From assembly GCA_004299485.1 (NCBI GenBank), contig SCQP01000007.1, forward strand, positions 62,001 through 126,000: a stretch of 64,000 nucleotides of DNA, written 5' to 3'. Position numbers and translations under genes: made by a program. How positions within the stretch are numbered: the stretch's first letter is position 1; every line of letters starts with the position of its first letter. This DNA is from Acidobacteriota bacterium (lineage in GTDB: Bacteria; Acidobacteriota; Terriglobia; Terriglobales; SCQP01). Positions 27,312 through 29,846 of the stretch are shown piece by piece. The notes under the pieces were generated by a model. That model made no database searches. It worked only from the letters and a program-made list of their open reading frames with translations, and had not been told where the DNA came from.

Positions 27312-27740
27312 CTACTTCGCGGGGATAGTAAAGGGCTTGCCCTTTTCGCCGACCTGGAAGACGAGCACTTCGGCGGGTTCGGTGGCGCTGAGGTTGCGCA
27401 TCATGCGATGCACATGCATGGGCGGTTCGTAGAAGTAATCGCCGGCGCGGTAGGTTTTGGGCTGGCCGGGATCGACCTGGTTCTCGATTGAACCCTTCAG
27501 GATGTAGGCGAACACTGGGCCGGTATGCTCGTGCGGATGGCCGTGCTCGCCGGGAGCGAGCGTCAGAATGATGACGCTGGCCTCGGCGTTGGGCATGGGC
27601 GCCAGCGGCTCACGCATGAGGGTGCGCACGGGGGTGTGTTTCCCGGATTGCGCGGCCGCAAGCGCCGGCAGAGCCAGGGGGAGCGTGAGCAGGCCGGCGG
27701 CGGCCGAGAGCAGCGCGGTGTTGGCTTCGCGTCGTGTCAT
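27312..27740 (-). CDS. Exported cupin-domain protein
   Basis: A 142-aa protein. A twin-Arg-like start (MTRREANTALLSAAAGLLTLPLALPALAAAQ) precedes a single cupin barrel. Metal-binding His/Glu residues lie in PGEHGHPHEHTGPVFAYILKGSI, with a second motif near PPMHVHRMMRN. The enzymatic activity, if any, is unknown; it may bind a small ligand. GGAGG lies 10 nt before the ATG. The ATG overlaps the end of the DUF3179 gene by 4 bp, so it is probably cotranscribed and translationally coupled. Confidence 0.85.
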   Translation of the reverse strand: MTRREANTALLSAAAGLLTLPLALPALAAAQSGKHTPVRTLMREPLAPMPNAEASVIILTLAPGEHGHPHEHTGPVFAYILKGSIENQVDPGQPKTYRAGDYFYEPPMHVHRMMRNLSATEPAEVLVFQVGEKGKPFTIPAK

Positions 27741-28735
27741 TGGGGTGAGTCCTCCTTGTAAAGCTTGGTGCCGGGATGGAATTCCGACCATGCAAACCAG
27801 AATTCTGGTTCCAGAATGAGCGAGCGCAGGCGCGCGCCGCGCAGGCGGCCAGAGAGGCAAACGCCATAGGCGTTCCAGAGGGAGTGCGTTTCCCGGTCGC
27901 GCAGGCGCGACGCGCCGGGGTTGGCAGCCTGGAAATGCAAATGGCGGCCGCGAGCTTCGGCGATGAAGGCGGTGGTGGTGTCGGAGGCGGGCTGATGCAC
28001 CAACAGCACCGGCACACTGCCGAGCTGATCGTTGACGACCGGCGTTTTATTGAGCGCGGCCACGGCATAGGCTTTGACGACGCCACCCGCCTCAAGGCCC
28101 ACAATCGTAGCGCGCGGCGGCAAGCGGTCATCATGGCCGAACGCGCCCTTGGGCGCACCGCCGCCGGCATTGACGATGCCCTGATCCAGAATCTGGTTCA
28201 TGCGCCCGAGGCGGGCGGCGTAGCCGGGCAAAGGCTGGAGCACCTGTGTCTGCGGATGCTTGCGGCGCCATTCGCTCCACTTCGTGAGCTGGAACGGATA
28301 CAGCTCGAGGTGCGTGCCCTTCAACGGCCCACTGATGGCGCTTGCGGTGGACTGCAGCCAGCGGCTACCGGTCTGGCGGTCGCGAAAGACTTCATTACCG
28401 CCATCGGCACCGGCGGTATCGAACTGCAGCACGCGACCTTTTACAGCGGCCCTGAACACGAGGGCCGTATTGCAGTAGCTTCACCAGGTGACGGTGATCG
28501 GTCCATCGGGCATCTGGTCTTCGACGATGCCGTGCTGCGCCACAATCGCGGCTGGATAGGCGCGCGAAACGCCATCCTCGCTAACGCCAATGAGCAGATT
28601 CGAGGGTGCGAGAAAGCTGGCCTGCGCCGCAGCGACAAAATGGGGATGGTCGATGGGACGGTAGGGCAAAGGCTGCTGCGCCGGCAACACGCCAACGGTC
28701 GCGAACCCCACGGCGATGAGGAACAGCAACCTCAT
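27737..28735 (-). CDS. DUF3179 protein with an in-frame TGA at the CxxC position: predicted selenoprotein
   Basis: One frame of 333 codons is crossed by a single TGA (28483-28481). From ATG 28735 the protein is 332 aa: signal peptide (MRLLFLIAVGFATVGVLPAQ), then LPYRPIDHPHFVAAAQASFL, typical of DUF3179. The TGA follows ITVTW and precedes S-Y-C-NTALVF. DUF3179 relatives have a CxxC motif at this point (TYCPLC type), so the codon replaces the first Cys and gives UxxC (U85, C88). The frame continues through RDRQTGSRWLQ and FWFAWSEFHPGTKLY, all conserved family features. A hairpin follows the TGA at SECIS distance. Function is unknown; UxxC suggests a redox role. A GTG at 28750 could extend the start by five codons. 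The alternatives are a nonsense mutation or sequencing error. Confidence 0.8.
28447..28467 (-). promoter_or_regulatory. SECIS-like hairpin downstream of the in-frame TGA
   Basis: On the DUF3179 sense strand a perfect 7-bp stem, CGGCCCT/AGGGCCG, closes a 7-nt loop CGTGTTC (28460-28454). The stem starts 13 nt and the loop 20 nt after the TGA. The second loop base is G. The general bacterial SECIS model calls for a short stem-loop with the loop about 16-37 nt from the UGA and a G in the first two loop positions. The hairpin lies inside the coding sequence, as bacterial SECIS elements do. Confidence 0.6.
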
Positions 28736-28754
28736 GGGGCCATTATGCACCCCG

Positions 28755-29846
28755 CTACTGATAAACGATATAGATCGGGCGCGGCGAGAGCGCCAGAATT
28801 TCTGCCGGCGTCATCAGGTGATGGCCCCACTTCATGTCGTTGTGGTAGAAGAGCTTGAAGCCTGTGAACTGAACCGGCTGGTGCTCGATGAAATCGCGAT
28901 AAGCGGCCTTCTTGTCACTGGGTGAGCCGAACCCATCCATATCCATCACGACCTCGACTTGCGGTCGCGGCTTGATGGCGCGGTAGTCGGTGACCATCGC
29001 CTGGGTGAAGCGGTGGACGACGAGAACTTTCGGCGGCAGGTGATTCTGCTCGACGATATTGGCCAGCCAGCGAACGGCAAAATCAATGTCGGAACCGCTG
29101 AGCGTGCCGCGCCACACGCCAGGGCGATGGCCATGCACCAGTGCGAATTCCGGGTCAATCGCCAGCTCGACGTTGGGCAACTTCATGTAGGGTTCAAGGC
29201 GCGGCAACTCCTGCTGCAGGCTGCTCCAGCCAGGTTGCACATCGAGGAACACCAGGCCATGCGCCTGATCGGCCATGTGAATGGCTTTCTCGATCTGCGC
29301 GGCGGGCATGCGCAGGCGGTAGTCGCCATCCGGGCCGCGGGATGCCTGCGCTGACACGGCAATGTAGTCCAGCGCAGGAATCACGGGCGTCGCGGGATCA
29401 GCCTCCGTCCAGGCGTTGACCACGGTTTGCAGTTTGGTGAGAACATCGGCCGGCGGGTACTGGCCGAGAATGCCCATCTGCGTGGAGTAGAAATTGCCGT
29501 AATAGGCGACGATGCGGTGAAAGGGCAGCAGCGCACCCGCATCGGGATAAGCGGCATGCACGGGCCACAACGGCTTGGGACACGGCCGCAAAGGCGCCAC
29601 CTTCTTCCGGTGCGGCTTGTGTTTGGAGGGCGCGCCGATCGGCTCAGCAGGGGGATCGACCGGGGTGGCAACCGCTCCCGGCGGCAGGCAATGGGTCTGC
29701 GGACGCCGATTCGCCAGCGCCAGCATTTTCGCGTTGTAAGCCGCTTCGTTGACCGTCGGCACGGGGGCAGATGGCGCTTGCCCGGCGGCACCGATGGCCA
29801 CGACAGCTAGAACCAAGAACGAAACAAAAATCTTAATGCCCTTCAC
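28755..29846 (-). CDS. Secreted protein of unknown function, upstream of the DUF3179 gene
   Basis: A 363-aa protein starting at GTG (MKGIKIFVSFLVLAVVAIGAAGQAPSAP, signal peptide). A Pro/Lys/His-rich linker spans residues 60-95. A conserved-looking domain follows with FHRIVAYYGNFYSTQMGILGQYPPADVL, VIPALDYIAVSAQASRG, HGLVFLDVQPGWSSL, VELAIDPEFALV, KVLVVHRFTQAMVTD and VVMDMDGFGSPSDKKAAYRDF. Repeated beta-strand/acidic-end blocks suggest a TIM-barrel, possibly glycoside-hydrolase-like, but I do not recognise the family. It ends about 20 bp before the DUF3179 ATG, so it probably shares the transcript. Confidence 0.75.
   Translation of the reverse strand: MKGIKIFVSFLVLAVVAIGAAGQAPSAPVPTVNEAAYNAKMLALANRRPQTHCLPPGAVATPVDPPAEPIGAPSKHKPHRKKVAPLRPCPKPLWPVHAAYPDAGALLPFHRIVAYYGNFYSTQMGILGQYPPADVLTKLQTVVNAWTEADPATPVIPALDYIAVSAQASRGPDGDYRLRMPAAQIEKAIHMADQAHGLVFLDVQPGWSSLQQELPRLEPYMKLPNVELAIDPEFALVHGHRPGVWRGTLSGSDIDFAVRWLANIVEQNHLPPKVLVVHRFTQAMVTDYRAIKPRPQVEVVMDMDGFGSPSDKKAAYRDFIEHQPVQFTGFKLFYHNDMKWGHHLMTPAEILALSPRPIYIVYQ

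Follow-up and report, generated by a model that had tools for sequence, protein, structure and literature searches.

DUF3179 proteins already figure among the prokaryotic selenoprotein families, where they are tabulated as 'DUF3179 domain-containing protein, pfam11376, UxxC/T' (PMC9312934; PMC13188914), and the tables of these two papers trace the entry to Zhang & Gladyshev 2007 and to an Olavius algarvensis symbiont. Public records named 'DUF3179 domain-containing (seleno)protein' also exist, for example WP_227777496.1 in Haladaptatus, and the suspicion voiced in the original prediction for the locus studied here, that some members may already be annotated as selenoproteins, was thus borne out by the tables (PMC9312934, PMC13188914) and by the record names. 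As the family is already listed, a DUF3179 selenoprotein is not new in kind. We know of no member that has been biochemically characterised.

The DNA analysed here is a stretch of 64,000 nucleotides (the window) from an acidobacterial genome of 3.3 Mb, 98.8% complete and in 22 contigs, and the closest named relatives of the window are likewise acidobacterial (Terriglobia, Acidiferrales, Bryobacterales). To judge from sequence comparison, one of its genes very probably encodes a predicted exported DUF3179 protein with selenocysteine (Sec) at an internal UGA, inserted through SelA, SelB, SelC and SelD and a SECIS hairpin. What is added to the listed family is its breadth in Acidobacteriota, at least four switches between Sec and Cys, a sub-branch with the motif U-P-L-A/V, a cupin gene linked in 24 of 24 close relatives and a confident structural model with a weakly Rieske-like N-domain. 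A phylum that selenoprotein reviews (PMC9312934, PMC13188914) hardly mention gains a well-supported selenoprotein, and gene callers that cut at TGA would truncate the protein in many Acidobacteriota.

The DUF3179 gene and its in-frame TGA

On the minus strand, the frame from 28735 to 27737 contains one internal TGA (28483–28481), is otherwise open and closes on a terminal TGA (27739–27737); a GTG at 28750 is another possible start. Translation and Pfam confirmed the single frame as it had first been read, with ITVTW before the TGA and S-Y-C-NTALVF after it, residue 85 standing in the context PDGPITVTW-U-SYCNTALVFRA. The read-through protein belongs to DUF3179 (PF11376), which it matches over residues 28–323 and profile positions 7-292 of 292 (E=8.6e-64; 216.2 bits against a gathering cut-off of 27). 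Searches with this protein against NCBIfam (E<=0.001), PHROGs and a phage collection returned no match, and an Rfam search of the window at gathering cut-offs found a tRNA-Leu only and no SECIS family. The hydrophobic N-terminus MRLLFLIAVGFATVGVLPAQQ resembles, by eye, a Sec-type signal peptide, and the protein is predicted to be exported.

Table 1. Positions of the DUF3179 gene, its recoding elements and the neighbouring cupin gene in the window
Feature	Position	Strand	Details and basis
DUF3179 selenoprotein gene (predicted)	27737..28735	-	332 residues, Sec = residue 85; Pfam and frame reading
Predicted Sec codon, in-frame TGA, W-U-S-Y-C	28481..28483	-	Frame reading, alignment of relatives, synonymous conservation
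Cys88 (TGC), second residue of UxxC	28472..28474	-	Alignment; Ala/Val in a distant Sec sub-branch
Putative bacterial SECIS hairpin	28447..28467	-	Stem CGGCCCU/AGGGCCG (28467-28461 with 28453-28447), loop CGUGUUC (28460-28454)
Genuine TGA stop, overlapping the cupin ATG (ATGA)	27737..27739	-	Frame reading
Cupin gene with twin-Arg-like N-terminus MTRREANTALLS..., candidate partner	27312..27740	-	Pfam and adjacency

Relatives were gathered from genome contigs as well as from samples taken at phylum, family and class level. At the aligned codon, 77 loci, duplicates included, have TGA (61), TGC (14) or TGT (2), and the 64 acidobacterial rows left after duplicate removal have TGA in 49, Cys in 15 and no other residue, so that the in-frame TGA is aligned with the Cys of homologues, a mark of selenoproteins. 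Besides the window gene, 48 non-redundant relatives from separate assemblies carry the TGA, and it occupies the same codon in relatives of 53–69% identity. Downstream of the TGA, pN/pS against the window gene is about 0.35–0.5, similar to the upstream part, while closer pairs give a dN/dS of about 0.09–0.18 past the TGA. Because the substitution patterns are alike before and after it, both sides are, by this measure, under purifying selection as one protein. The shared TGA codon together with selection past it is, on these comparisons, beyond chance.

Selenocysteine machinery

All components needed for Sec insertion are encoded by the host: a tRNA-Sec (selC) with anticodon UCA (C14:280669-280759, 73.1 bits), selA on the same contig (440.6 bits), selB on contig C7, about 61 kb from the DUF3179 gene (350 bits counting its C-terminal neighbour), and selD on contig C16 (347.5 bits). 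Across the 46 genomes sampled, selA scores above the cut-off in all 31 with a TGA-type gene versus 5 of the 15 represented by a Cys-type gene (Fisher p=7e-7, kinship ignored); some of these five may owe their selA to other selenoproteins or to paralogues. The host's molybdopterin enzymes contain no in-frame TGA inside the matched domain, so that no second target in the form of a Sec-containing formate dehydrogenase is apparent.

The SECIS hairpin

The internal UGA would be decoded as Sec by the standard bacterial SelA/SelB/SelC/SelD route, a SECIS hairpin 20 nt further downstream directing the insertion. The published bSECIS model describes a loop of 3-9 nt, a stem of 4-16 bp, a G in the first two loop positions, a distance of 16-37 nt from the UGA and an MFE <= -7.5 kcal/mol (PMC13188914). 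The window hairpin, with a perfect 7-bp stem, a 7-nt loop that starts 20 nt past the UGA and has G at position 2 followed by U, and a folding energy of -15.0 kcal/mol, fits this permissive model, as do 48% of all the TGAs that the window contains; its single-sequence fold z-score, which varies from -0.4 to -1.9 with the stretch folded, is unremarkable. Since a lone hairpin is unremarkable and so many TGAs pass the model, the case for the SECIS rests on conservation.

In 21 close relatives of Sec type, synonymous conservation is highest, of all 302 segments of 8 codons, in those that start 2-6 codons past the UGA (0.84-0.89, versus 0.48 overall), and over codons +5 to +12 the value is 0.86 in Sec members versus 0.41 in three Cys members. 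The Arg at +10 is written AGG, a codon that makes up 6% of Arg codons elsewhere, in 21/21 Sec rows, and CGC or CGG in Cys rows. Pairing is kept in 99.3% of the stem cells, and two pairs have changed on both sides (G-C to A-U; C-G to G-C), these compensatory changes amounting to two cells only. The closest Cys members do not retain the window hairpin. The TLCHTG branch of DUF3179 has a different one, CACACC-GGUCU-GGUGUG, whose apical loop lies 16 nt past the UGA; with CGGCCCU-CGUGUUC in the window branch, two to three distinct SECIS sequences are found within the family. In members with U-P-L-A/V the hairpin loop is shorter (CGUGU in 3/4).

Taken together, the alignment column, the machinery, the conserved hairpin and the co-occurrence with selA strongly support the selenoprotein reading of the TGA, and two checks proposed with that reading came out in its favour, the column being exclusively Sec or Cys and selA, selB, selC and selD all being present in the source genome.

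Fold and active site

AlphaFold2 gives a confident model of the full-length protein, with two duplicated, mostly beta domains (pLDDT 90.4; 94.0 for the N-domain alone). The internal duplication covers residues 28-170 and 205-327 of the window gene product; U/CxxC occurs in the N-terminal half only, and in the window branch HQPxSDxTTAF stands at the matching place of the C-terminal half. A thioredoxin-type CxxC/UxxC oxidoreductase was rejected as a candidate, the two duplicated mostly-beta domains not being a thioredoxin fold; no thioredoxin occurs among the Foldseek matches listed for the models, which are mainly Rieske proteins.

Across 30 aligned full-length members, Thr83, U/C85, Asp119, Trp126 and Gln128 are among the positions that never vary. 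Cys88 is variable, four loci (L058, L059, L062 and L063) reading U-P-L-A or U-P-L-V with Sec retained, and the family can therefore do without a disulfide-type UxxC pair. The original prediction had placed the TGA at the first Cys of a conserved CxxC and proposed a redox role through UxxC: the first position holds as Cys or Sec in 64/64 rows and the window gene does have UxxC, but the U-P-L-A/V members lack the second Cys, and UxxC fails as a universal DUF3179 active site. The gene product would act in the periplasm as a redox protein whose catalysis or reactivity resides in the selenol of residue 85, perhaps assisted by the invariant Asp119, Trp126 and Gln128; in UxxC members Cys88 may form a selenenylsulfide with Sec85, while members with U-P-L-A/V may rely on an external thiol or on some other residue to resolve the intermediate.

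Against the PDB, Foldseek returned no match below E=0.001, and nearly all leading matches are Rieske domains: such proteins make up nearly all of the top ~30 for the N-domain, and the full-length model lists the same kind. The N-domain is aligned with PetC3 at probability 1.00, TM 0.64 by target and rmsd 3.4 over 96 columns (E=0.03). When the two are set against each other at one fixed offset, the loop pattern C-P-x-H-G-x-x-[FY]-x4-G-x5-P of Rieske proteins faces D-R-x-T-G-S-x-W-x4-G-x5-P in DUF3179, so that each position of the loop at the invariant Asp119 has its counterpart in their second ligand loop, Asp standing in place of Cys and Thr in place of His. A variant of the Sec reading builds on this: the N-domain would be a degenerate Rieske fold with residue 85 at the place of the first ligand, binding a metal or acting on a metal-bound substrate instead of performing thiol-disulfide exchange. 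This variant is a tentative possibility, favoured by the confident N-domain model, the Rieske-dominated lists, the aligned loops and the Sec members that dispense with the second Cys, but the domain E-values never fall below 0.03, both histidines and the second cysteine are missing, the model is without ligand, and a comparison of the N-domain profile by hhalign with a purpose-built Rieske profile was negative (probability 0.9%). A PDB sequence search with the family profile found no relative, with one chance match at E=0.94. A Rieske [2Fe-2S] cluster site as such was rejected, the loops being U-x-x-C and D-R-x-T in place of the C-x-H and C-x-x-H ligands. In a viral structure library the full-length model matched one uncharacterised protein of Indivirus, a giant virus (E=6.6e-8, TM 0.38/0.51), which is uninformative on function.

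A more specific and somewhat more doubtful proposal sees DUF3179 as a Rieske-fold protein, duplicated and without a cluster, whose Fe-S site has been replaced by an extracytoplasmic selenol/thiol site (U/C85 and Asp119) working with the adjacent cupin. If true, an old fold for electron transfer would have gained a new chemistry through Sec, the second Cys being unneeded.

Alternative readings of the TGA

The UGA could be read through by a route other than Sec insertion, such as reassignment to Trp or near-cognate readthrough, as the frame is open across it and the preceding residue is Trp; this is highly improbable, since the DUF3179 gene itself ends in TGA, the complete Sec machinery is encoded, the aligned residue is Cys and never Trp or Gln, and selA tracks the TGA form. 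That an ordinary CxxC gene was misread in sequencing or assembly, or has become a pseudogene by nonsense mutation, can be dismissed with near certainty: TGA is one base away from TGC or TGT and the genome is in 22 contigs, but 49 non-redundant relatives, each assembled separately, have TGA at this codon, a conservation by which, at the level of sequence, this explanation is already refuted, and purifying selection is equal on its two sides with synonymous constraint over the SECIS region.

Sec/Cys switching and the cupin neighbour

The Cys type is spread over a quick ML tree in at least four changes, and its groups lie nested next to groups of the Sec type; because the root was not inferred, the direction of the switches is unproven. 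A SECIS-like stem persists in one Cys member, L050 (TGC; -17.1 kcal/mol, 16 nt), and its genome, G171, is without selA. As the stem is kept in a selA-less genome, L050 suggests a recent replacement of Sec by Cys, the stem being a relic of a Sec ancestor. The interleaved forms are natural pairs for asking what benefit selenium brings to a predicted exported protein.

In the window, the DUF3179 stop codon overlaps the ATG of the cupin gene, which matches Pfam Cupin_2 at 4.5e-14, scored on a longer ORF with TTG start (27312-27860). A cupin adjoins the DUF3179 gene in 24/24 non-redundant close relatives (e.g. L064, L078, L080, L088, L092), lying downstream on the same strand in 11, downstream on the opposite strand in 10 and upstream on the same strand in 3; none was detected beside distant DUF3179 genes. 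The opposite-strand cupins, with just 36-46% identity to the window cupin, may be a sister type. Because the adjacency survives changes of orientation, it suggests a functional partnership, perhaps via a cupin-bound metal. To our knowledge, this linked cupin and the Rieske-like fold hint are the first concrete handles on DUF3179 function. The gene upstream of DUF3179 in the window (28755-29846, minus strand, 363 aa) has no match in Pfam, NCBIfam, PHROGs or PDB, and it was not found beside the DUF3179 gene in relatives.

Comparison with known systems

The window hairpin is presumably unrelated in sequence to the E. coli fdhF SECIS. The two share, following the general model (PMC13188914), the placement of a coding-sequence hairpin just 3' of the UGA and a G among the first loop positions, as known for the formate dehydrogenase type. 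The Rieske [2Fe-2S] domain (PF00355; e.g. PetC3, 5cxm) resembles the N-domain in a weak but consistent fold match and in one loop pattern at fixed spacing, whereas DUF3179 lacks the two ligand histidines and the second ligand cysteine and gives no sequence-profile match. The '(seleno)protein' records express the same annotation concept, but those of the Haladaptatus type are haloarchaeal proteins only ~25-32% identical to the window protein. The closest counterpart is the listed DUF3179 selenoprotein, which has the same Pfam family, the UxxC motif and Sec aligned with the family Cys; that entry comes from a deltaproteobacterial symbiont, whereas the present locus belongs to Acidobacteriota, with a U-P-L-A/V sub-branch, a linked cupin and a SECIS compared across relatives.
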